A stretch of 64,000 bases of DNA from Paludibacteraceae bacterium. Its GTDB lineage: Bacteria; Bacteroidota; Bacteroidia; Bacteroidales; Paludibacteraceae. Both the position numbers and the translations under genes were made by a program. The notes beneath the pieces are model-generated. The model was given only the letters and a program-made list of their open reading frames with translations, was not told the DNA's origin and ran no database searches. Numbering within the stretch: position 1 is the stretch's first letter; the number at the start of each line of letters is the position of its first letter. The DNA is taken from the NCBI GenBank assembly GCA_024401435.1, contig JAKSLB010000012.1, positions 1 through 64,000 of the forward strand, given 5' to 3'. Of the stretch, positions 34,376-50,512 are shown piece after piece.

Positions 34376-35872
34376 TCAATTGTTTTCGTGAATTTTTAAT
34401 TCTTCTGTTATTTTATCCATTCCTATTATTTCTGCACAAGTAAAGAAAGATGTCATACTGACACCTAAGATTCCATGTAGATTTAGATTTTGTCCGGTTA
34501 GTAAAAGATTGGCTATAGGTGTTTTGGGGGTCAGCATGGTATAAGCTAATTTGGTATAATCTTTCTGTATACCATATGCACTACCTTGGAATGTACCTGT
34601 ATAATCTCGATAGGTAAGGGGAGTACTTGTGTATATTTTTTCAATGTTTGCTTTTAATGAAGGAATTCTTTTGGCGGCAATGTCTATGCATTCCATTGCT
34701 TTTTCTTCTTTCATTTGTTCGTATTCTGAACCCCTTTTCATAAGGGTCGTGTTTTCCCATTGAATGACTTCTTGCCAATTCATAGGAGTCAGTAAGTCAA
34801 TATTGCATGTGGTCTTTTCCTCAGATTTGGGTGCCTGATAACTAACCAATACGCAGTCTGTTTTCCTTGCTGCGTTATATTGATAATATGACCATATATC
34901 TTCTGTTTCGTAGATGTATTGATTCCTGTTTAAATAGGGTACAGTGCCTTCTTTTACTTGAATGTTGGCTGTAAACATTCCGTATGTGTTGGGAATGTTA
35001 TTGATTCTTCTTTTATATATGTTACGAATGATTTTACTCTCTTTTACAAGTTCTAATGTACTGACAGGATGAATATTTGAGATAAATGTTGTTCCTTCTA
35101 TTTCTTCTCCATTTGTCAGTATTGCTTTCGTAATAATGCCGTTTTCTTCTATTAGTTCGTTTACTTTTGCTTTCGTACGAACAGCTCCTCCTAAGGATGT
35201 GATATTTTGTGCTAATTTTTGCGCGATTTGCATACCTCCACCTTCAATTCTCCACGCACTTTGAATAAATGAATCGTTGATTTGTGCGAAGATATAAAGA
35301 GGTAACTTTTCGGGATGTAGTTCCATTTTCAGTGAAGTCCCTGCTAATACGTTGCGAAGCATCGGATCACTAATGGTCTCATTTAAAAAATCGTAGGCTG
35401 ATTGTGTAAATGCTTTGGATTGATAAAACTCTTCTGCTGAACGAGGTTCAAAACTTTTGAAAATGTTTTGTCCGATTTCTTTTATAGTTGCTACGTAATT
35501 TTTCAGATTTTCTTTTTGATGGGGAAAATCTTTGGATAATGTTTCAATAAAACGATCATATCCATTGGCAAATGCATAACTCTTTCCTTTGATTATGACT
35601 TCATCAAAACAATCTTCATCTAATTTCTTCCAAGGAAGGTCCATTAGATTAAAATAATTGAACAACCGATTAAGGTGTTGTCCTTCTCCTAATCCTCCGA
35701 TGTAGTGAAAACCTGTGTCAAATGTGGTGCCTTTTCGCTTAAAAGTTTGCAGACATCCACCTAAAACAGGACATTGCTCTAAAACGCATACACTCAATCC
35801 GTTTTTTGCAAGTGTGTATCCGCATTCTAGTCCACCAAGACCTGCTCCGATTATTACTACATCATATTTCAT
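34376..35872 (-). CDS. Phytoene desaturase/retinol saturase-like FAD oxidoreductase
   Basis: 498 residues. An FAD-binding Rossmann motif at the N-terminus (VVIIGAGLGGLECGYTLAKN, residues 5-24) is followed by a GGCLQTFKRKGTTFDTGFHY dinucleotide and substrate segment typical of CrtI/RetSat-like amine-oxidase-fold enzymes. The C-terminal flavin contact is LLLTGQNLNLHGILGVSMTS. Members of this group saturate, desaturate or isomerise polyenes. As last gene of the ketosynthase-ACP cluster, 3 bases after the exporter gene, it is expected to act on the cluster's fatty or polyene product (inference). Confidence 0.85.
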   Translation of the reverse strand: MKYDVVIIGAGLGGLECGYTLAKNGLSVCVLEQCPVLGGCLQTFKRKGTTFDTGFHYIGGLGEGQHLNRLFNYFNLMDLPWKKLDEDCFDEVIIKGKSYAFANGYDRFIETLSKDFPHQKENLKNYVATIKEIGQNIFKSFEPRSAEEFYQSKAFTQSAYDFLNETISDPMLRNVLAGTSLKMELHPEKLPLYIFAQINDSFIQSAWRIEGGGMQIAQKLAQNITSLGGAVRTKAKVNELIEENGIITKAILTNGEEIEGTTFISNIHPVSTLELVKESKIIRNIYKRRINNIPNTYGMFTANIQVKEGTVPYLNRNQYIYETEDIWSYYQYNAARKTDCVLVSYQAPKSEEKTTCNIDLLTPMNWQEVIQWENTTLMKRGSEYEQMKEEKAMECIDIAAKRIPSLKANIEKIYTSTPLTYRDYTGTFQGSAYGIQKDYTKLAYTMLTPKTPIANLLLTGQNLNLHGILGVSMTSFFTCAEIIGMDKITEELKIHENN

Positions 35873-35875
35873 GTT

Positions 35876-38800
35876 TTATGCTTTGTATAAAATGAAGCGT
35901 TCGTCTTCGTCTTTCTTCTGAAATTTACTTGGCAAAGAAACTTTGTCAAGCATATTCTTTTGAAGTATAATCACTTTGGCTGATTCCAAACATTTGTTTA
36001 GTTCCTCTGGAATAGAATCTTCAGAGTAACTGATAGAAATGACGTCAAATGAATTTTCTAATATAGTTTCGTTATTGGTGAATTTAATTCTTTCGTCTTT
36101 GCAATAGCAATTGTTGGCTATCGTTATTGCATATTCATCTTTGTTATATCCTATAATTTCCATATCATTTGAGTTGATGTGGAACCAATAGGCTTTGTTG
36201 CCATAACCACAATTAAAATCCAACATTTTTCCTGATATAGGGAAAAGATCATTCAACATTTTATAGTTGTGTGTAATCTTTAATTCTCCTTTTACAGCTC
36301 GTTCAACGTCAAATCCTTTGTATTCGTAGATGTTCCTTATTTGTTGCTTGTTGGACATCTTTTGCTTTTTGTTAAAGTAAACTTCTCCGTGGAATATGTT
36401 AAACAAGGTAATAGGAGCAACTCCTTTGCCAGCTTGTCTTTTTATCAACCAGTAGAATAGAAATGGTTGAAGAGTATATGCGATGAGAACAGCAGAACTC
36501 ATTCCGATTAAAGTGGAAACTCCAATGGAGCGAACTGATGGGTGGTGCGCAAAGAGTAGGGATGTAACTGTGATGATTAGAACCATAGCGGAGAAAAGAA
36601 TGGCTGTTTTGTGGAAAATCAGCAGGTTCCTTTTCGTCCTGTATTCTGTCAGTAATCCATCCATGATGAAGATGCTATAGTCAACGCCCACACCATAAAT
36701 AAAGGAAGATACAATGATGTTGATTAAGTTGAATTCTATGCCAAATATTCCCATTACCCCTAATACAATATACCAACTAAGTGTCATAGGCAAGAAGGAT
36801 ATAAATGCAAGGATAATACTTTTATAGGCTATTAATAGAACGATTAATACAAAGATGGATGAAATTCCTAATGTTACATTGAAGTCTTTGTGAATCAATT
36901 CCAACATGTCACTTGTGTAATAGAATGGATCTATAACGACTAAATGCTCATGAGAGGTGATTTCGTCACATACTTCTGTTTTGTACTCCTCTTTTATTAG
37001 AACAGGAGTAAATACAAGATACTTCCCATCTGTGTATTCTATCATATTACATTTAATAGAAGCTGGTAAAGCTTTGCTGTCATATAATGAGAATGGTTGA
37101 TAGTTGGTAAACTCAATTAAGTGCCTGAAGGAGTTTAGAGAGTCAGGAATGAATCCGCATGTTGTAGCGGCTTGATCCATATCCGCTAATACTTTTGCTT
37201 TTTTGTTAGGTGTCCAATATTTATTCCAAGCATCTATTCTTTTTTGCTGTTCGGATTGAAGTAAGAATAGTTGCTCATTGTTACTTGTATAGGGTCCCAC
37301 CTTTCCTAAATCCTCTAATGCCTTAAACATTTTTGCCATTTGTCGGTTGTATACCAAGGCAGAGTCTAAATTCTCAGAAGTGGCTGCGAAGTATACTGTT
37401 TGGTAACCTTTTGTTGTGTGTTCGGCTAATATTTTCTGGGATTCTATAACACTTGGTTCATAATGACTAAGATGCTTGATATTGGTGTCGAATTTTACCC
37501 AATCTGAGGTAAAGAAACTTGTTATACTAATGAAGATGATAGCACAGATAAGAATAGTTTTCCTTTCGAACGGATAAGAGTTGATTTTATTAAGAATGGA
37601 CAAAACTTTTTGAGAAGGTTCTTTCTTGTCAATAGTGAAAAATTGAGGAAGAAAGATTAAACAAAATATTGTTGTACCCACTAAAGCTAATGACGCAAAT
37701 ATTCCAAAATCTTTCAATAATTCTGCGCGAGTGAATAGTAAACTCAAAAATGCACCAATGGTGGTGAGTGATCCTAAAATGACAGGAACTGTTTGTTCTT
37801 TTATTACTTTTACCGGATCGTTTACATATTTTTTATGAATAAGTACATGCAGACAATAACTTAATGCTACACCCAATACGATGGCACCAATTCCTAAAGC
37901 TAAAAGAGAAATTTGTCCTTTTATAAAATAGATAATGGTTAAAGAGAAGAAAAATCCATATCCGATAGGTGCTGCCATTTGGATAAGAAATTTTGGATCT
38001 TTGTAGCATATCAAGAAGATAAGACAGATAATTAACATAGAAACAGAAAGAGTCATAAACAAATCGGATTTGATTTGTTTTGAATTGAAGACGCTTTGAG
38101 GTGCTGCACCATGATAATAAATATCAATGTCTGGATAAATCTCGTTATAATATTCTATTTCTTTGTCAATTTCACTGATTAACTTGTTACTTAATTTGGA
38201 ATCTAGTGTTTTGAAATTAGGAGATAACCAAACAATAGCAATGGCACTATCAGGAGAAAAGAAATGTTTATCGATGATTTTATAGTTCGATCCCAGTCCG
38301 TCTTTAATTGTGCTCATTTTGTTCATAAACACTTTACGAAAGGCAAGGGGATCTTTGAAAATGACATCCATCATCATAGAACCTGTAGGTGAATAGATGG
38401 TCATCAAGTTCTCTTGCATTTGCTGGTTGATTGCTTGCGTTGATGTAAGAGAATCAATCATAGTGTAATCCGTACTGTCAATAAAGATAGGTAACTGGTT
38501 GTAGAGCTCTGTAATACCATCTTTTAGCATTTCTGGATCTACTTTATAAAGTGGTTCGTCCAGCATTTCGGCACAAATGGTATTGGCTGTTAAGCGGTTT
38601 ATAAAGGTGTCGACAGAAGCAGATGTGCGGAAAACATCTGTTGTATCTGATTTTGGTTTGAAAACCAAAAAAAGTTTATCCTTTACTTTAAGGTTCTCAA
38701 ACACTACCTCTTTTGTGTTGTCTTTGTCTTTTGTGGATGGCAATAATTTTGTAACATCCTCTTCATACTTGATTTTTGTTCCAAAAAAGACAAAAAATGC

Positions 38801-38881
38801 AGTACTAAGTAGAAGCACTGCCCAGAAAACTAATTTGTTTTTTTTGAAAAAATAGTATATCGAAATTGCCAGTTTTGTCAT
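35876..38881 (-). CDS. MMPL/RND-family exporter fused to a C-terminal methyltransferase-like domain
   Basis: 1001 residues. Residues about 1-830 make a two-repeat RND transporter of the MMPL/HpnN type: 12 membrane helices, two large periplasmic loops (about 40-255 and 455-640), and SSFIYGVGVDYSIFIMDGLL in the second half. From about 840 (MSNKQQIRNIYEYKGFDVER) comes a domain with a SAM-type loop MLDFNCGYGNKAYWFHIN, lacking some later methyltransferase motifs, so its activity is uncertain. In aryl-polyene clusters the exporter and methyltransferase are usually separate genes. The gene probably moves the lipid product towards the outer membrane. Confidence 0.88.
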   Translation of the reverse strand: MTKLAISIYYFFKKNKLVFWAVLLLSTAFFVFFGTKIKYEEDVTKLLPSTKDKDNTKEVVFENLKVKDKLFLVFKPKSDTTDVFRTSASVDTFINRLTANTICAEMLDEPLYKVDPEMLKDGITELYNQLPIFIDSTDYTMIDSLTSTQAINQQMQENLMTIYSPTGSMMMDVIFKDPLAFRKVFMNKMSTIKDGLGSNYKIIDKHFFSPDSAIAIVWLSPNFKTLDSKLSNKLISEIDKEIEYYNEIYPDIDIYYHGAAPQSVFNSKQIKSDLFMTLSVSMLIICLIFLICYKDPKFLIQMAAPIGYGFFFSLTIIYFIKGQISLLALGIGAIVLGVALSYCLHVLIHKKYVNDPVKVIKEQTVPVILGSLTTIGAFLSLLFTRAELLKDFGIFASLALVGTTIFCLIFLPQFFTIDKKEPSQKVLSILNKINSYPFERKTILICAIIFISITSFFTSDWVKFDTNIKHLSHYEPSVIESQKILAEHTTKGYQTVYFAATSENLDSALVYNRQMAKMFKALEDLGKVGPYTSNNEQLFLLQSEQQKRIDAWNKYWTPNKKAKVLADMDQAATTCGFIPDSLNSFRHLIEFTNYQPFSLYDSKALPASIKCNMIEYTDGKYLVFTPVLIKEEYKTEVCDEITSHEHLVVIDPFYYTSDMLELIHKDFNVTLGISSIFVLIVLLIAYKSIILAFISFLPMTLSWYIVLGVMGIFGIEFNLINIIVSSFIYGVGVDYSIFIMDGLLTEYRTKRNLLIFHKTAILFSAMVLIITVTSLLFAHHPSVRSIGVSTLIGMSSAVLIAYTLQPFLFYWLIKRQAGKGVAPITLFNIFHGEVYFNKKQKMSNKQQIRNIYEYKGFDVERAVKGELKITHNYKMLNDLFPISGKMLDFNCGYGNKAYWFHINSNDMEIIGYNKDEYAITIANNCYCKDERIKFTNNETILENSFDVISISYSEDSIPEELNKCLESAKVIILQKNMLDKVSLPSKFQKKDEDERFILYKA

Positions 38882-38897
38882 AATCTGAATGTTTTTT

Positions 38898-39284
38898 TTA
38901 TTCTATGCTGTATTCACCTTTGTATTCAAGATAAATAGTTTCCTTGTTAGGTGATGTGATATTAGCTAAAGCAAGATAGTTGCCATCTTCTTTTTGCTCT
39001 AAAGAAAGAGAAATTAACAATTGAGGACAATTCTGAGGGGTGATGAGTGCTGCAAATCTACAATGCGCAATAGATTCGATTCTTAGTTTTTTCCCTATTT
39101 GAAGTTCTGCGCATTCACGAATGGTTTGAACATTACAAACACCTGGACAAATGGGATCTCCGGGGAAGTGACCCTTGTAAATCTCATGATTTGCATTGAG
39201 CTTTGTGAGGTATTCAACCTCATTCTCATTCTTCGTAATTTGTTCTATTGTGAAAAAATCTCCTACTAACATACTTTTATTCAT
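38898..39284 (-). CDS. Hotdog-fold 3-hydroxyacyl-ACP dehydratase-like protein
   Basis: 128 residues, single hotdog domain. The FabZ-type active-site segment HEIYKGHFPGDPICPGVCNVQ is present, with the His and the GHFPG-x-P-x-x-PG core; the helix residue equivalent to FabZ Glu is in TIRECAE. It probably dehydrates 3-hydroxyacyl-ACP intermediates. It lies 16 bases from both neighbours in the lipid/polyene cluster and is one of two dehydratase-like genes there, as in aryl-polyene loci (apeI/apeP-type pair, inference). Confidence 0.82.
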   Translation of the reverse strand: MNKSMLVGDFFTIEQITKNENEVEYLTKLNANHEIYKGHFPGDPICPGVCNVQTIRECAELQIGKKLRIESIAHCRFAALITPQNCPQLLISLSLEQKEDGNYLALANITSPNKETIYLEYKGEYSIE

Positions 39285-39300
39285 TTATGAATAATACAAA

Positions 39301-39741
39301 TTAATATCCCCATTTTTCTTTCCATTTTTGAAAGAATTCTGGGTTGGTGACCTGTAATTCTCCGTTAACACTCATAAATACTTGAGTTGTTTCAGCGGTA
39401 AGGACGACACTCATATCTGATTTCTTATAGATGATATAATCAAAAATCAGTTTGGCAGACCTACAAGGTCTATAGGTCGTTTCTACAATAATAGATTCGC
39501 CAACGGAAATACTTTGCTTAAATTGTAATTTCATGTCAACAACGGGTGCTGTAAAACCATTGTTAAACATGGTAAGGTATTCTAATCCAAATTCCTCGCC
39601 AAAGTTTTCCCTGCCGTCTTCCATATATTTGACATAATTGCCGTGCCATACCACTTTAATGGAGTCCACTTCACAAAATCGAATTTTCACTTCAGTTTTG
39701 TTGGTGAGTTTTTGAGAGGATATGATACTGCTTTGTGTCAT
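39301..39741 (-). CDS. YbgC/4HBT-family acyl thioesterase
   Basis: 146 residues with a 4-hydroxybenzoyl-CoA thioesterase hotdog: FCEVDSIKVVWHGNYVKYME has the catalytic D-x-x-x-V-W-H-x-x-Y pattern, followed by EFGL and the strand VDMKLQFKQSISVGESIIVET. It probably hydrolyses acyl-ACP or acyl-CoA to release or proofread the cluster's acyl chain. It starts 3 bases after the preceding dehydratase gene stops. Confidence 0.87.
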   Translation of the reverse strand: MTQSSIISSQKLTNKTEVKIRFCEVDSIKVVWHGNYVKYMEDGRENFGEEFGLEYLTMFNNGFTAPVVDMKLQFKQSISVGESIIVETTYRPCRSAKLIFDYIIYKKSDMSVVLTAETTQVFMSVNGELQVTNPEFFQKWKEKWGY

Positions 39742-39744
39742 GCT

Positions 39745-40182
39745 TTATTCTTTGATAAAGATTTTCATCTGACAGGTGGCAATTGTCTCTTCTCCGACTT
39801 TTGCTTCTGTTTTGATGAGGGAAACATTTAGTATTTCAGATACCGTCTTTATGTGAGTTAAAACTCGTTCTCCAACTTTTGGACGACGTATCAGTTTGAA
39901 TTTTTTGATTTCACCGATATATCCGATTGGTGGGTTCTCTGCGTTCTTTAATTTCTCTTTGTAACCAGCGAAAGCAGAAGCTGATTGAGCAATGTGCTCA
40001 ATCAGCCCTGGTTCTAAAAGTTCTCCGTTTTCGCAGAAAAGGTTATCTGACTTAATTAATAAGCCAGTGTTGCACTCTACCTCGTCGGCATCATAAAAGG
40101 TGTCGACCATCATGATAGGCGCTCTTTGTGGAATAAGTTCCTTTATGCCTTCTCCTTCGAAAAGAGGTGTTTTATTACTCAT
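39745..40182 (-). CDS. Hotdog-fold beta-hydroxyacyl-ACP dehydratase-like protein (ApeP-type)
   Basis: 145 residues. The N-terminal KELIPQRAPIMMVDTFYDAD matches the opening of dehydratases annotated in aryl-polyene and fatty-acid clusters (the 'PQR-PFLMVD' motif), and EPGLIEHIAQSASAFAGY forms the central helix with the acidic and polar active-site residues. It is longer than the other hotdog gene of the cluster and not close to it in sequence. It lies 6 bases after the ACP gene. Confidence 0.83.
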   Translation of the reverse strand: MSNKTPLFEGEGIKELIPQRAPIMMVDTFYDADEVECNTGLLIKSDNLFCENGELLEPGLIEHIAQSASAFAGYKEKLKNAENPPIGYIGEIKKFKLIRRPKVGERVLTHIKTVSEILNVSLIKTEAKVGEETIATCQMKIFIKE

Positions 40183-40188
40183 AAAAAT

Positions 40189-40443
40189 TTATTTTTCTAT
40201 TCTTTCATACAAATAATCGTAGAGTTCCGTGAATTTTTTGATGTGTAGCATTTCCGGACCACTAATTTTAACTTTGTATGTGTTTTCAATAACAGCAACT
40301 AAATCAATCAAACTTAGACTATCAAGGGCAAGAGTCATTTTGATAGAACCTTCTGGTTGTATTGTCGAAACTTCTACTTCGAATTCTTCTGCTAAAAGTT
40401 CGTTAAGTTCGTTAATAAATTGTTGTTTCTCCATAGCTTGCAT
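40189..40443 (-). CDS. Acyl carrier protein
   Basis: 84 residues from the ATG at 40443; an internal ATG at 40434 (MEKQQF) is an alternative start. Four-helix ACP with the phosphopantetheine serine at Ser42 in LALDSLSLIDLVA. It differs from the house-keeping ACP by the DSLSLID motif, so it is a dedicated carrier for this cluster. It lies between the ketosynthase (6 bases) and the dehydratase (6 bases). Confidence 0.92.
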   Translation of the reverse strand: MQAMEKQQFINELNELLAEEFEVEVSTIQPEGSIKMTLALDSLSLIDLVAVIENTYKVKISGPEMLHIKKFTELYDYLYERIEK

Positions 40444-40449
40444 GGGTTT

Positions 40450-41676
40450 TTATTTAACAAATTTTTTAACGATAAGGGTAGAGTTGGTTCCTCCGAATCC
40501 AAATGAGTTGGACAAGAATGTATCGAAACTCTTCTCTATACGTTTGTTTGGAATATTCAATTTGGCAGAGTCTTCATCAGGATTTTCAAAGTTGATGTTT
40601 GGTGCGATGAAATTATTTTGCATCATCAACATTGAATAAACTACTTCACTTGCGCCTGCCATCCACATTTCATGACCAGTCATTGCTTTTGTAGAAGTCA
40701 CTTCTGGTCTGTGATCACCAAATACATTGAAGATAGCTTTCGCCTCTTGACGGTCTCCTACAGGAGTGGAAGTTGCGTGAGCATTTAAGTATCCGATTGT
40801 ACGAATGTCGATTCCTGCTTCACGGATTGCCATTTGCAATGAACGACTTGGTCCGTCAACATTAGGTTGTGACATGTGATCACCATTGGAAGAAAATCCG
40901 TAACCGATTACTTCAGCTAAGATTGGTGCACCACGTTTAACAGCATGTTCGTAGCTCTCAATAATTACTGTAGCGGCACCTCCACCAGGAACAAGACCAT
41001 CACGGTCGCGGTCGAATGGACGAGATGCTTTAGTTGGATCACTTTCTCTGGTAGAGAATGCACTGATACCATCGAAACTTCCTATTGAAAATGGATTCAC
41101 TTCTTGAGCTCCACCACAAACGATACAATCTTGCAATCCCCATTTGATAAGTAATGATCCTAATCCAATGGCGTGTGAACTACTTGCACATGCACCAGAA
41201 ACAGTTAGATTGATACCTCTTAATTTGAAGATACAGCCTAAGTTCATTGTTACTGTAGAGTTCATAGATTGGAAGATTGCTCCAGAACCTACTAGTGTGG
41301 TATCTTTCTTTTCACGCATTGTATCAACACTTTTTACAACTGCGTCTGCTGTACTATCATTACCATAGAGTAAACCAACTTCGTTTTGCTCTAAATAATC
41401 CATGTCGATATTGGCATTTTTCAATGCTTCACATGTGGCAACGTATGCATATTTTGCTTCTTCTGGCATATATACTCGTTGACTTCTGCTGAGTTGACCT
41501 TTTAATTCTGGAATTTCCAATTTTGCTGTTAGCGCGGATCTGAATCCCATCTCTTTACGTGCAGGATCAAAGATGATTCCTGACTTACCATTGTATAAAG
41601 ATTCTTTAACCTCATCTAATGTTTTTCCCAAACATGAGTATATACCCATACCGGTAATCACAACTCGTCTGTTCAT
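40450..41676 (-). CDS. Beta-ketoacyl-ACP synthase (FabF-like)
   Basis: 408 residues. A thiolase-fold ketosynthase with the Cys163 nucleophile in VSGACASSSHAIG and two His in LNAHATSTPVGD and KAMTGHEMWMAGA, the complete Cys-His-His triad of elongating enzymes. It is closer to the FabF/FabB-like enzymes of aryl-polyene and flexirubin clusters than to house-keeping FabF (judged from NDSTADAVVKSVDTMREKKD; not tested). It is first gene of the cluster, with a -7 box about 100 bases upstream. Confidence 0.92.
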   Translation of the reverse strand: MNRRVVITGMGIYSCLGKTLDEVKESLYNGKSGIIFDPARKEMGFRSALTAKLEIPELKGQLSRSQRVYMPEEAKYAYVATCEALKNANIDMDYLEQNEVGLLYGNDSTADAVVKSVDTMREKKDTTLVGSGAIFQSMNSTVTMNLGCIFKLRGINLTVSGACASSSHAIGLGSLLIKWGLQDCIVCGGAQEVNPFSIGSFDGISAFSTRESDPTKASRPFDRDRDGLVPGGGAATVIIESYEHAVKRGAPILAEVIGYGFSSNGDHMSQPNVDGPSRSLQMAIREAGIDIRTIGYLNAHATSTPVGDRQEAKAIFNVFGDHRPEVTSTKAMTGHEMWMAGASEVVYSMLMMQNNFIAPNINFENPDEDSAKLNIPNKRIEKSFDTFLSNSFGFGGTNSTLIVKKFVK

Positions 41677-41775
41677 GTCTTAACGAATTTATTTAATGTT
41701 ATTAATTTTTATTATCAAAACTATTTTGCCAAAATACATCTATTCATATAAATGATGTATACAATTTATGGTCGG

Positions 41776-46340: not shown

Positions 46341-46348
46341 AAGGAGGT
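46341..46348 (+). promoter_or_regulatory. Strong Shine-Dalgarno sequence deciding the lipoprotein start
   Basis: AAGGAGGT lies 4 bases before the ATG at 46353. Such full matches are rare in this window, and it favours ATG 46353 over the GTG at 46347. Confidence 0.7.
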
Positions 46349-46352
46349 GAAG

Positions 46353-47990
46353 ATGAAAAAACAGAGTTTATTTGTATGGGGCGCTCTATTGAGTGGCTTC
46401 CTTGTATCCTCATGTTCCGAGGATCAAATCTTAAGTGAAAGAGAAAGCCGTGATATTGTTCCTTTGACGACCATCACAGCAACTATCGGGCAAAACGAAA
46501 ATTCCTCTTTGCGCTCTTCGCTGATTCTGGATAAAGATGAAGATGAAAATCTTTATTTTAAGAATGTGTGGGAATCGGAGGATTCCGTTGGAATTAGAAC
46601 TGGTAGTGGTCCAGGTTATTATAAGTTGACAATTTTTAGTAATCAAGACAATGATATAAACACATTTACTTATCGGTCAGGAGACCCTGTTGGCGTAGGT
46701 GAAATGTTGTATGCTTTTTACCCTACGAATCGTTTCTTCCCTTTAGGTAATGGAGGATTTACTTATCCCGATACATTAATATATGATGCAAACAATATAT
46801 TGCCAAAAAATTCATGGATGATGGTTGCCTCTTCTGATAGTGGCAAATTCCAATTTAAGAACGTGAATTCTTTGCTGATAATAAAAGTGAAATCGGAAAA
46901 AGGGGAAAGTCGTGTGAAAAGCATTGAATTAAAAGCAACGTCGGGTTCCTTGTCAGGAAGTATGTATTATAGTTCGACTTCATTTGAAGGTTTGCTGCCT
47001 TATTCACCCACTAGAGCCTACGTTGTCTTAAAATGTGGAGAAGAGGGAGTTGCCATTAATTCAGAAAAAGAGACAGATTTCTATATTCCTATTCCGGCAC
47101 AAACGGTGAAAGGATTAACTGTTAAAGTGAATTTGACAGATGGAACATCTTATACAGATAACCCAAGAGACGAGAAAGAGTTTGTAGCTTCTAACTATTA
47201 CACCACTCATGTGGTTGTAAAGGGAGCGGAATCCGCTTTGCCGGAAGGAGCCTTGAAGGGTAAATTCTCTGTGTCTGCAACCAAGCAGGTTTACTTCTCG
47301 CAAGGAAATCTGCAATACCAGGCAAGTACGGGAACTTGGCGATTTGCAGAGAACCAATATGATGTAATTGGTGATGATAATAAAAATATTTCCTCCACCT
47401 ATGAAGGTTGGATCGACCTCTTCGGATGGGGAACAAGCGGCTACAATAGCAAATATCCGTACATGACCAGCACAACTAGATCCGACTACGGAGACGGAAG
47501 CAACGACATTGCTGGCACCAATTACGATTGGGGTGTTTGTAACGCTATCAGCAACGGAGGCAATAAGGCGGGTATGTGGCGCACATTGACCAAAGATGAG
47601 TGGAAATACCTCTACAGCACCCGCACCAACGCCTCTGACCTCCACGGACAAGCGACCGTCAACGAACAAGCAGGTTACATTCTTCTTCCCGACGGATGGA
47701 GCACACCAAGCGGATTGACGTTCACTGCTAACCCTAACAACTTCACCACGAACAGCTACTCTGCTTCCGAGTGGAGCAAGATGGAGGCTGCGGGAGCCGT
47801 CTTTTTGCCTTGCGCTGGCAGCCGCTCTAGTACGGATGTCTACTACGTTGGTTCCTACGGACTCTATTGGTCGTCCACGGCGTACAGCGACGCCTACGCC
47901 TACGACTTCAACTTCCTTTCGGGCAGCGCCAGCGTCAGCAGCCACAGCGGCCGCGGCAGCGGGTTCACTGTGCGCTTGGCCACAGAATAA
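46353..47990 (+). CDS. Lipoprotein with FISUMP/C-type-lectin-like C-terminus and DGR-like variable region
   Basis: 545 residues. The lipoprotein signal ends in LVSSC (Cys about 21). A fimbrillin-like beta region follows (about 35-285: ITATIGQNENSS, LYAFYPTNR, VVVKGAESALP). From about 290 (GKFSVSATKQVYFSQGNLQY, TGTWRFAENQYD) comes a FISUMP/FGE-like domain ending VFLPCAGSRSST, GLYWSSTAYSD and GFTVRLATE. From about 47400 the DNA becomes much more GC-rich than its surroundings. In the last segment (TAC at 47883 to AGC before GGG) 24 of 26 codons end in C and AAC appears once, the pattern of adenine-mutated AAC codons in DGR variable regions. It is probably a surface-displayed ligand-binding protein. 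No reverse transcriptase lies nearby. Confidence 0.8.
   Translation: MKKQSLFVWGALLSGFLVSSCSEDQILSERESRDIVPLTTITATIGQNENSSLRSSLILDKDEDENLYFKNVWESEDSVGIRTGSGPGYYKLTIFSNQDNDINTFTYRSGDPVGVGEMLYAFYPTNRFFPLGNGGFTYPDTLIYDANNILPKNSWMMVASSDSGKFQFKNVNSLLIIKVKSEKGESRVKSIELKATSGSLSGSMYYSSTSFEGLLPYSPTRAYVVLKCGEEGVAINSEKETDFYIPIPAQTVKGLTVKVNLTDGTSYTDNPRDEKEFVASNYYTTHVVVKGAESALPEGALKGKFSVSATKQVYFSQGNLQYQASTGTWRFAENQYDVIGDDNKNISSTYEGWIDLFGWGTSGYNSKYPYMTSTTRSDYGDGSNDIAGTNYDWGVCNAISNGGNKAGMWRTLTKDEWKYLYSTRTNASDLHGQATVNEQAGYILLPDGWSTPSGLTFTANPNNFTTNSYSASEWSKMEAAGAVFLPCAGSRSSTDVYYVGSYGLYWSSTAYSDAYAYDFNFLSGSASVSSHSGRGSGFTVRLATE
47816..47990 (+). other. Candidate DGR variable region (VR) at the 3' end of the lipoprotein gene
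   Basis: Codons read mainly AGC, TAC, GAC, GCC, GGC, TTC, CAC, CGC and GTC, all reachable from AAC by changing one or both adenines, with fixed codons for Trp, Gly-Phe and the final TVRLATE. The position (extreme 3' end of a C-type-lectin-like domain) and the following hairpin fit known DGR targets. Template and reverse transcriptase would have to act from outside the window. Confidence 0.5.
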
Positions 47991-48030
47991 CGCTATTCCG
48001 AAGAAGTAAAACCCGAAGCAAAAACCAGTA

Positions 48031-48100
48031 AAGGAATGACAGGAGGGAATCCCTGCGGCCTCACGAAGAGGCCAGCGGGGATTTTCTCGTGTCATTCCTT
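48031..48100 (+). terminator. Long hairpin just after the variable lipoprotein gene
   Basis: The outer arms AAGGAATGACA/TGTCATTCCTT (11 bp) enclose an inner stem AATCCCTGC-GGCCTC / GAGGCC-A-GCGGGGATT (15 bp, one bulge) with loop ACGAA. It starts 41 bases after the stop. It could be a terminator or the hairpin/cruciform found downstream of DGR target genes. Confidence 0.7.
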
Positions 48101-48168
48101 TGAGAAACATAAGTGATGCGCAGCCGATGGGTTGCGCATTGTTTGTATGTAGGGGTGTTGAGTAGGAT

Positions 48169-48455
48169 GATAGGTACTGCCCTCTAGGCAGATGTCTATG
48201 CTGCCATGCCGAAATCCGAGGGCGCTGCCCTCGGTTACTGAAATATAGCCTTCCAGGCTATAGCTTACTATCAGAAGCCACTGCTAGCGGAAGCCGAAAT
48301 ACAACCTTTTAGATTTAGAATGGAAAATGAAACATTCCTCTTGGTTATGAGTACAGTGTGCCTGGAAGGCACTATCTGAGTAACCGGGGGCATCGCCCTC
48401 GGATAAGACACACCACACCTACCTATCAGCCTGGAAGACTGTACCTTCTGTGAAA
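48169..48455. repeat. REP-like palindrome cluster 1
   Basis: It contains CCGAGGGC-GCT-GCCCTCGG, TAGCCT-TCC-AGGCTA and CTGCC-CTCTA-GGCAG palindromes, then on the far side CCGGGGGCATCGCCCTCGG and CAGCCTGGAAGACTG in a similar arrangement. The 94 bases 48169-48262 repeat at 48989-49082 with two differences. This cluster lies immediately 3' of the RAYT gene. It is clearly more GC-rich than the chromosome around it. Confidence 0.85.
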
Positions 48456-48460
48456 GTATC

Positions 48461-48913
48461 CTAATCCTTAAAGAAAAGGTCCTTGGTGGGATCTTCGCCC
48501 ATCTCCCTCTGCCACTCCTCGAATTCTTTACGAAACGACTTCTCTTTATGATGGATTTTCTGTTCCTTGATGTACTTGATGACAGCAGGACGCTCTTTTA
48601 CACTGTATGTAAATCCAGCATAGCCGTTGCCCCAACCGTCAAACATCGGGAATTTTTCTCTCTTCTCTTTCATCCATTTCGAAGTCTCTTGCTTAACGAT
48701 CCTTACGAACTCGCTCACAGCAATCGTCGGGTGTATCTCTACGCATATATGTACATGGTCAGGCATTGAGTTGATACGATACAAGTGACATTTCTTTTCG
48801 ATGCACAAGCCTAGAATATAGGCATACAGTTCTCTCTCATAAGTTTCGGAGATAGTTCGTTGGCTGCATTTTGTACGCCACACGATATGATAAGTCAAGT
48901 TTAAATGTGCCAT
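48461..48913 (-). CDS. REP-associated tyrosine transposase (RAYT, Y1/HUH family)
   Basis: 150 residues. An IS200-like Y1 transposase: N-terminal strand LTYHIVWRTKCSQ, the metal-binding HUH motif in MPDHVHICVEI (His53 and His55), and the catalytic Tyr114 in VIKYIKEQKIHH. A GWGNGYAGFTYSV segment is typical of this subgroup. The gene is flanked on both sides by REP-like palindrome clusters in direct repeat, the hallmark of RAYTs, which process and spread REP/BIME sequences as single strands. The frame is intact with all catalytic residues, so it is probably functional. Confidence 0.92.
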   Translation of the reverse strand: MAHLNLTYHIVWRTKCSQRTISETYERELYAYILGLCIEKKCHLYRINSMPDHVHICVEIHPTIAVSEFVRIVKQETSKWMKEKREKFPMFDGWGNGYAGFTYSVKERPAVIKYIKEQKIHHKEKSFRKEFEEWQREMGEDPTKDLFFKD

Positions 48914-48988
48914 AACAGGAAGTTTTATAAGGATAACGAGAAATAAAGATATTTATTTTGCAGATGTAGGGACTTTTTATTTGGCGAG

Positions 48989-49306
48989 GATAGGTACTGC
49001 CCTCCAGGTAGATGTCTATGCTGCCATGCCGAAATCCGAGGGCGCTGCCCTCGGTTACTGAAATATAGCCTTCCAGGCTATAAAGCATACAACCTTATGC
49101 AGAGATCGTCTGTAGGGACGTATTGCATACGCCCTGATGTGGTAGGTGTTCCAGACGCAGAAAGTAGCCTGCGCTTGAAATGTTGAGAAAAGTGAGCCTC
49201 TGCGCAGTGGCTGGAAGCCACTATCTGAGTAACCGTGGGCATCGCCCTCGGTTAGAGATGCACCACAGCAAACATCAGCCTGGAAGGCTGTACCACCAGT
49301 GAAAGT
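48989..49306. repeat. REP-like palindrome cluster 2
   Basis: Same order as cluster 1: a 94-base block (48989-49082), a spacer containing a GGGACGTAT/ATACGCCC hairpin near 49118-49135, then CCGTGGGCATCGCCCTCGG (about 49232-49250) and CAGCCTGGAAGGCTG (about 49276-49290). It lies 5' of the RAYT gene and directly abuts the 3' end of the ORF6N gene. Confidence 0.85.
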
Positions 49307-49308
49307 AA

Positions 49309-50202
49309 CTACAACCGTGCCAGTAACTCATCGGCTGTATGCTCGGTGATGATGTCTACTGAGAACCAACGCTTTCCTAGATCTTTCAGAGAGGCGCCAA
49401 AATGGTAGATGGTGTCATCTATAATAAGCCATCGGTCGTGGGATGATTCAAATGTGTGAAGTGTGGTTGGTTCGTCTGGATATTGAGCGTTGTATTGCTG
49501 TATGGCTTGCGATAGGTCATTTGTGGCAAACCGACTTTTGACATAGCAATCAAGTGTTACGCATGGATTCCTCCGGTGAAAGCGTTGTAATAGCGAAGCA
49601 GATAGATAGTCGTCGATAAGGACTATACGGTGTTGGGCTTTCTGTATTAACTCCTCGACTAGCACAAAAGCGTCGAACATTTGGCCATCAAAGAATACTC
49701 CTAATTTTTGTTTGAGAGAACCGTCGTCAAGACGATCGAGGATTTGGTTTATTTTCTCTTCTACAGAGATCTGCTTGAGTTCTACGGTTTCAAGTCTTTG
49801 GAAGATACTGGCGTTGGCCAATATGAATTTTCTCATGGCGTGGAATGCGTCATTGATGCGGATGGACATCTCAATGGCTGTGTCTGAATGTAGAACGGCA
49901 GATAGTTGAGTCACCCCTTGTTCTGTAAAAGCGTAAGGAAGATAGGATGAGTGTTTTAGCGTTTTGAACCTATCACATTTTGTGATAAGTTCCTCTTTTT
50001 CCGCCGCAGTCAGTTGAAAACGATAACGTTCCGGAAAGCGTGCTTCGTTTCTTTTGACTGCTTGATTTAGTGCAATAGTTTTAACTTGATAGAATTCTGC
50101 TAGGTTCGCATCCATGATGATTTGTAGTCCTCGAATGGTAAGAATTCTCTGCTGTATGCTCTCTTGTGAGTAGTGTTGCAGTTGGGTAGTTTCTTTTTGC
50201 AT
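49309..50202 (-). CDS. ORF6N-domain protein with PLD-like C-terminal segment
   Basis: 297 residues from the ATG at 50202 (MQKETTQLQHYSQES). A longer frame to 50283 runs into the MITE copy and is not used. The N-terminal ORF6N/KilA-N-type DNA-binding domain (about 17-105) shows ILTIRGLQIIMDANLAEFY, RFPERYRFQLT and SYLPYAFTEQGVTQLSAVL. A coiled linker follows (about 145-180). The C-terminal part (about 185-297) ends ESSHDRWLIIDDTIYHFGAS and LKDLGKRWFSV, resembling half of a phospholipase D-type site (His-x-x-x-x-x-x-Asp). Such proteins are common, multi-copy and phage-like in Bacteroidales; their role is unknown. Confidence 0.85.
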   Translation of the reverse strand: MQKETTQLQHYSQESIQQRILTIRGLQIIMDANLAEFYQVKTIALNQAVKRNEARFPERYRFQLTAAEKEELITKCDRFKTLKHSSYLPYAFTEQGVTQLSAVLHSDTAIEMSIRINDAFHAMRKFILANASIFQRLETVELKQISVEEKINQILDRLDDGSLKQKLGVFFDGQMFDAFVLVEELIQKAQHRIVLIDDYLSASLLQRFHRRNPCVTLDCYVKSRFATNDLSQAIQQYNAQYPDEPTTLHTFESSHDRWLIIDDTIYHFGASLKDLGKRWFSVDIITEHTADELLARL

Positions 50203-50512
50203 AATAATTAATAATACATAATAATCGCGTTCTATGTTATGTGCAACCCCTCTGGGGTTGTGTGGACGGGGATACAAATCCATTATTCTACTGATATGGA
50301 ACCCCTATGGGGTTCTTCGAGACATAGAGACGCAAAATATTGCGTCTCTACAAGGGGGCGACGGTGTCCCATTTGCAAAAAAATCGCATATTGATTCAAC
50401 TCTCGTTGTTCGATTAGGGGCTTGGAGTTCAAAAAAAGAATCTGCAACGCCATATTTACTGGCATTGCAGATTATTTTGGTATGCCTTTTCATGTTTAGC
50501 GGACACCAATAA
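50203..50512. mobile_element. MITE-like element C, joined to the ORF6N gene
   Basis: About 305 bases nearly identical to element B, in opposite orientation, with terminal repeat GTTTAGCGGACACCAATAA at 50494-50512. The opposite end is missing: identity stops at TTAATTAT and the ORF6N start codon follows at once. The gene's upstream region, and perhaps its promoter, is therefore MITE sequence. Confidence 0.82.

Follow-up and report, generated by a model that had tools for sequence, protein, structure and literature searches.

Diversity-generating retroelements (DGRs) do not always lie beside the genes that they diversify. According to passages of the published accounts, targets with adenine-derived variable regions that are situated away from a reverse transcriptase (RT) and template, or lack them, occur in Treponema denticola (PMC4891356) and Thiohalocapsa PB-PSB1 (PMC10907252) and among DGR fragments of Nanoarchaeota (PMC4372165). 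The portions of the literature that we drew on (PMC3240598, PMC4891356, PMC4372165, PMC10907252, PMC8144416, PMC6642488, PMC12632263, PMC6199706, PMC3521204, PMC10743442) show that orphan and remote targets are a known kind, as are targets of the C-type-lectin and tip-pilin types. In Bacteroides, an excerpt describes DGRs that diversify tip pilins, which pair a fimbrillin-like lipoprotein with a possibly ligand-binding C-terminal domain (PMC12632263), and for BPP-1 and other phage DGRs the hairpins are described, in part of one paper, as having 7-10 bp stems and GRNA loops of 4 nt and as lying 4-34 bp from the variable repeat (VR) (PMC3240598). Surveys locate DGRs via the RT, and a passage of a large survey says that remote targets escape this approach (PMC8144416). 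Our literature search, which covered titles, the starts of abstracts and passages, returned no study of the lectin family treated here and no paper combining "diversity-generating retroelement" with "FISUMP". Here, we analyzed a 64,000-nt stretch of DNA (the window) that comprises positions 1-64000 of contig C24 of a Paludibacteraceae genome (G000; 3.83 Mb, 204 contigs, 93% complete). Our reading is that positions 47820-47969 are very probably the DGR-written VR of an orphan target whose core (template, accessory protein and RT) was not found in the assembled genome; the assembly does not hold a complete DGR. In such a system, as in known DGRs, a reverse transcriptase prone to errors at adenines would copy a template RNA with AAC-rich codons, and the resulting mutated cDNA would replace the VR, with codon positions 1 and 2 randomised and the other bases reset to the template.

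The target gene occupies 46347..47990 of the + strand and encodes 547 aa counted from a GTG at 46347, the likelier start, judged by eye, being an ATG at 46353. Its N-terminus carries what we take to be a signal peptide, a lipobox-like ...LVSSC and then SEDQ, the lipobox and surface-export motifs having been read by eye. A fimbrillin-like region follows at 46566..47225 (+), where Pfam Mfa_like_1 matched with E 1.3e-4 and 22.5 bits, below its 27-bit cut-off; this match arose when 46353-47240 was scanned alone and is absent from the listing for the whole protein, which gave no Pfam or NCBIfam match at E ≤ 1. The C-terminal domain of about 240 residues has a constant framework at 47259..47816 (+), as delimited by homologue comparison, and ends in the VR at 47820..47969 (+), in which codon positions 1 and 2 are hypervariable and position 3 is conserved. 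The FISUMP/C-type-lectin-like label of the first-pass annotation, and with it the C-type-lectin fold, holds as a weak family relation: the target of a relative matched Fib_succ_major below the cut-off in both Pfam (E 1.4e-4) and NCBIfam (E 0.0053), Lcl_C was matched at E ≤ 0.01 in two and Fib_succ_major in one of 38 homologous domains, and no usable PDB sequence match was found. A pattern search of the genome collection listed at least 597 stretches, and 570 of those listed code for a relative of the lectin domain. Judged by this domain, the closest named relatives are metagenome-assembled genomes of Paludibacteraceae and of other Bacteroidales, many of them from horse faeces and ruminant guts. 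Elsewhere in the host genome (G000:C128:179610-181510), tandem FISUMP-like repeats occur with an apparent frame change inside one open frame, and the C-terminal codons inspected there do not have the NNC pattern. The target gene probably encodes a surface adhesin of the fimbrillin-like type, anchored by lipid, in which the lectin-like end bears the randomised surface and may bind a ligand.

Of the 26 codons at 47883-47960, 24 end in C (the exceptions are CTT and TCG) and codons for K, E, Q, M and W are absent, whereas the framework at 47259-47816 has 71 C-ending and 32 K/E/Q/M/W codons among 186 (Fisher, p 1e-7 and p 0.017, respectively). This was the only place with at least 20 C-ending codons among 16,398 segments of 26 codons in 41 non-overlapping window ORFs, each of at least 150 aa, with an overall C3 share of 0.16. 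The dense NNC block described in the first-pass annotation is thus borne out as the sole such cluster in the window's ORFs; its extension to almost all of the final ~60 codons is not, as 34 of the 50 codons of the VR end in C and 8 in T. Some codons in variable columns are T-ending (TCT, AGT, CTT) and there are indels, making for an imperfect fit to AAC templates. At variable VR positions 1 and 2 the bases number G 76, A 73, T 64 and C 23, and C is likewise the rarest outcome in a survey of adenine substitutions, according to a passage of it (PMC3521204). The earlier caveat that a GC-richer cassette begins upstream was right: GC is 0.386 in 46347-47258, 0.519 in 47259-48107 and 0.364 across the window. 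It is conceivable that an ordinary GC-rich cassette was imported by recombination and that a preference for C-ending codons, together with positive selection on ligand-binding loops, shaped its end with no DGR involved. Both GC and C-ending codons indeed rise from about 47259-47400, where DNA homology also starts sharply, but the C-ending share rises a second time inside the cassette, from the framework's level to that of the dense block.

The nearest homologues of the target come from two genomes of the genus to which G000 belongs, with three copies in G011 and two in G012. Among the window target and the three G011 targets, positions 1 and 2 differ at 0.40 and position 3 at 0.137 in the VR, as against 0.116 and 0.413, respectively, in the domain outside it. 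The resulting VR ratio (positions 1/2 over 3) of 2.91 is more than seven times the largest value of 0.39 among 146 outside windows of equal length and was not reached in any of 2000 column permutations; adding both G012 copies gave a ratio of 1.79 vs. 0.41 outside (again 0 of 2000 permutations). The letter of the window differed from all three G011 copies at 3 of 48 third positions in the VR and 44 of 191 outside (p 0.008), and at 18 of 96 first and second positions in the VR and 25 of 382 outside (p 5e-4). Going from framework to VR, position-3 divergence between the window and the three G011 targets fell from 0.30-0.42 to 0.07-0.13, one of the three comparisons using 23 framework codons because the fetched locus starts there. 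No such drop was seen against the two G012 targets (0.37-0.43 to 0.35-0.38), suggesting that G012 has another template type. As a positive control, the cis target of a DGR in genome G018 showed position-3 divergence falling from 0.38 to 0.12 against its own remote copy and from 0.42-0.43 to 0.06-0.15 against two copies in G019. Further members varied: a gene of G022 (L080) showed a less even drop against four others (0.52-0.56 to 0.14-0.36), drops were clear for L043 (0.69 to 0.38) and L075 (0.60 to 0.20) and slight for L019 (0.62 to 0.53), and members with K/E/Q/M in this region (L020 twice, L021, L044 and L067) showed none (0.54-0.70 to 0.61-0.73). Where all three G011 copies agree within the VR, the window departs from them at 10 of 83 columns (8 of 74 non-A columns), which is about the framework rate (40 of 411) and indicates that its own template, if any, is like G011's but not equal to it.

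The combination in the VR of hypervariable positions 1 and 2 with a position 3 that is better conserved than in the framework also speaks against the import of an ordinary GC-rich cassette. It bears equally on another process that would need no RT, namely the swapping of VR segments among paralogous lectin cassettes by recombination, which would assort old variants. Tandem copies and a chimeric gene remnant on contig G011:C96, as well as the cassette breakpoints, lend this idea some substance. Exchange between paralogues would, however, carry positions 1 and 2 along with position 3, and only position 3 is homogenised here; moreover, the search of G000 yielded no further copy of this VR type. 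We therefore consider such swapping unlikely as the source of the pattern and retain writing of the VR by a DGR.

Relatives encode DGRs that use the same domain. RTs with an IGNLTSQ or IGNLTTQ motif, which we take to be the DGR-type RT motif, were found in G012, G018, G022 and G026. The SQ dipeptide of the DGR RT motif is named in part of a published survey (PMC3521204). In G018, G022 and G026 the order is accessory gene, template and RT, with a lectin target in front in G018 and G026; the G022 target is absent from the fetched 12 kb. All three templates encode the same lectin-domain end, and they have Asn codons in many columns that are variable in the group of the window. With an alignment tolerating A changes, the cis VRs of G018 and G026 differ from their templates at 16/46 and 18/48 A sites and at 0/98 and 0/111 non-A sites. 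A fourth genome, G383, has target, accessory gene, template and RT together on a 5,151-bp contig (L376 1-5151, G383:C64), and its template differs from a remote VR on an 84-kb contig (L134) at 29/51 A and 0/117 non-A sites under neutral scoring. This identity at non-A sites suggests, on sequence grounds, that remote targeting occurs in this lectin family, the two G383 contigs being assumed to lie far apart in the real genome since the cis target sits on the small one. Compared under neutral scoring with the templates of G018, G022 and G026, the VR of the window differs at 28/50 A vs. 25/103 non-A, 34/55 vs. 23/98 and 30/48 vs. 34/111 sites (p 2e-4, 4e-6 and 2e-4); its A/non-A ratio was reached by 0, 1 and 0 of 31 control members. 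Against the G383 template, it differs at 31/108 non-A sites. Variability at adenine-derived sites with conservation of other sites was thus found both against homologues and against foreign templates, and a DGR-written VR at the 3′ end of the target, as first proposed, is strongly supported by the homologue comparison and by the DGRs of the same domain. That relatives carry templates of this domain beside DGR RTs is also difficult to reconcile with an ordinary GC-rich cassette, which we regard as a most improbable explanation.

The DGR-linked accessory genes (L170 341-892, L171 4918-5484, L169 9467-9997) form a family of ~180-210 aa with ...EGSF.RAYEWSAWL..., for which no convincing Pfam or NCBIfam match was found; its profile also matches 49 of 80 viral-contig loci fetched by RT. 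In G012 (L055 9397-10830, G012:C71), the DGR RT frame extends back, stop-free, through an Asn-rich template region. This template is unlike the targets of the lectin family and was not in the best seven listed for the targets of either the window or G012.

The invisibility of RT, Avd and template noted in the first-pass annotation extends to the whole 93% complete assembly, from which ~7% of the genome may be missing. The PF00078 (RVT_1) profile had no match in G000 at E ≤ 0.01, and a profile of four DGR RTs had none at E ≤ 10 in G000, G011 (88% complete) or G341 (98%); at E ≤ 1e-20, the latter profile matched 35 of 358 family genomes. For the accessory gene, G000 gave only a weak match (E 0.078) inside an 878-aa frame. 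A DNA search with 47380-48110 returned no template for the VR in G000, and a template-translation search of 16 genomes of the genus, which did detect the divergent G012 template region (E 0.005), returned no matching template, the best own match being the window VR itself. Likewise, a DNA search of the 358 family genomes with 47925-48020, scoring at most two candidates per genome, yielded no matching template; besides the window it hit two places in G011 and one G341 target, all VRs, and other hits had E of at least 4.6e-4. None of 77 template-like segments in the fetched loci matched. In viral contigs, exact 20-mer search gave 0 matches and protein search 5 distant loci, one of which we considered as a template and rejected (L366, Asn-rich and beside an RT), as it differs from the VR at 30/95 non-A sites. 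Among the matches listed for phages and plasmids, none covers more than 14% of the query, and a Vibrio phage match was dismissed as chance. Of the two observations that the first-pass annotation had set against its own reading, then, the absence of a DGR RT and template was found in this assembly, and strain differences of an ordinary synonymous kind were not, the differences compared being between species.

With neither an RT nor a matching template found in G000, the window holds an orphan or remote target: either a trans-acting core is missing from the assembly, or the VR is a recent relic, left by a DGR that has since lost its core in this lineage, and is no longer diversified. A relic would agree with the absence of DGR-RT profile matches in G000, G011 and G341, and Treponema denticola isolates that have targets without a core provide a precedent, according to a passage of that study (PMC4891356). 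It would also agree with the picture across 15 genomes with DGR-like VRs, all or most of them incomplete metagenome bins, of which 5 have a full-length DGR RT, 2 a partial match (E 1e-18 and 1e-27) and 8 none at E ≤ 1e-10. We selected these genomes because, of 86 VRs extracted, theirs are the 23 in which K/E/Q/M make up no more than 2%. This label is given by amino acids alone, and in a few of the 23 C-ending codons are scarce (e.g., L118, 0.25). Conversely, third positions still diverge only about one third as much in the VR as in the framework, indicating that erasure has not gone far, and the G383 core sits on a 5,151-bp contig of a kind easily lost from a bin. By our judgement, loss of the core is a serious possibility of somewhat less than even probability, and a trans-acting core is the rather better bet. 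The remote (trans) target of the first-pass annotation accordingly stays plausible, with no acting core found in the assembly, and we infer a core, active now or until recently, on an unassembled contig or a mobile element.

Downstream of the VR, a conserved 3′ flank at 47970..48002 (+) spans the gene end, the stop codon and 12 nt beyond, and may function as an IMH-like segment. The hairpin reported earlier exists at 48029..48102 (+), with a different size and position: rather than 11+15 bp located 41 bases after the stop codon, it has 33 bp in helices of 13, 14 and 6 bp, a 5-nt loop and an apical stem GGCCTC-loop-GAGGCC, and it begins 38 nt after the stop codon. Its fold stability has a z of -7.7, and none of 200 shuffles was equally stable. 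Rfam offered no credible family (a single match, E 0.47, far under the gathering score), and a simple terminator scan listed no + strand site at the hairpin. The hairpin is also paired in G011 and in G341, where the outer stem differs in sequence, and the stem structure is retained while sequence varies between the window and L075. Long hairpins likewise stand behind the cis targets of G018, G026 and G383. The hairpin of the window, which has these counterparts behind known targets, may be the homing cruciform of a DGR target. Statistical specificity to DGR-like members was not obtained: stems of at least 18 bp follow 11 of 23 DGR-like and 7 of 31 non-DGR-like members (stem length p 0.058), so an exclusive link to DGR-like VRs is unsupported, and the long stems behind the latter imply that a general role, e.g., transcript ending, may apply.

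The surroundings of the hairpin include an IS200-like Y1 transposase at 48461-48913 (-; Pfam E 3e-24). On either side of it, within 48166-49307, lie repeats in direct and inverted orientation that are nearly identical (97 nt at 97%, 48 nt at 92% and 34 nt at 88%) and resemble ones in G011:C94. Presumably, this is a REP-associated transposase with its repeats. We rejected it as the source of the hairpin, which lies outside these repeats and is kept with the VR in G011:C96. An ORF with an ORF6N domain (49309-50283, -; Pfam E 4e-26), a domain common in phages and mobile elements, also lies near the lectin gene.

DNA homology with the G011 targets delimits a lectin-VR-hairpin cassette at about 47259..48107 (+): it starts at 47256-47265 and ends past the hairpin, at 48107 or 48146. 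Homology to the two G012 targets stops at 47915, and none to the G011 or G012 targets was detected in the upstream part of the target gene. Matches of the flanking DNA are to short repeats (G011:C94) and, in G012, to a separate syntenic block at 34892-41720. The segment resembles a portable cassette that has been attached to a fimbrillin-like lipoprotein. On G011:C96 (L063 418-6202), behind each of three lectin lipoprotein genes in tandem stand a hairpin and a truncated 5′ piece of the accessory gene (frames of 72-84 codons with a common end), and then comes the chimeric lectin remnant. The remote target of G383 (L134 1462-2870) has the same layout of hairpin and truncated accessory gene. These arrangements suggest that remote targets arise as truncated copies of a DGR cassette comprising target, hairpin and accessory start. 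At the window copy, lectin domain, VR and hairpin are present and no accessory piece was found. Tentatively, we propose that the lectin-VR-hairpin unit might be a self-contained portable DGR target, copies of which leave DGR cassettes, join unrelated adhesin genes and species, and stay mutagenised in trans by a mobile, often unbinned core; many diversified genes would then sit in genomes that look DGR-free and be missed by RT-anchored surveys. Within this lectin family, 10 of the 15 genomes with DGR-like VRs, all or most of them incomplete bins, are without a full-length DGR RT match. Trans action by cores would mean that counts of hypervariable surface adhesins in Bacteroidales of herbivore guts are too low.

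The present target was recognised without an RT or a template of its own, by codon-position statistics. Set beside the remote and orphan targets of Treponema, Thiohalocapsa and Nanoarchaeota, it differs in being a lectin-VR-hairpin cassette joined to a fimbrillin-like lipoprotein, in an uncultured Paludibacteraceae relative known from a metagenome-assembled genome, with the core not found in the assembly. It may, judged by its sequence, resemble the tip pilins of Bacteroides in coupling a fimbrillin-like lipoprotein to a C-terminal domain, and is unlike them in that no RT was found. Similar to the mtd site of Bordetella phage BPP-1 (VR, IMH and hairpin), as far as it is described in the passages available, the VR lies at the 3′ end of the gene and an inverted repeat follows; unlike in BPP-1, the stem is 33 bp long, the loop is 5 nt and the distance from the stop codon is 38 nt. 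The DGRs of G018, G026, G022 and G383 share the lectin domain and have template Asn codons at many of its variable columns; in G018, G026 and G383 the cis target is followed, as in the window, by a long hairpin. In contrast to the window genome, these four possess the accessory gene, template and RT, and the templates of G018, G026 and G022 differ from the VR of the window at 25, 34 and 23 non-A sites, respectively.
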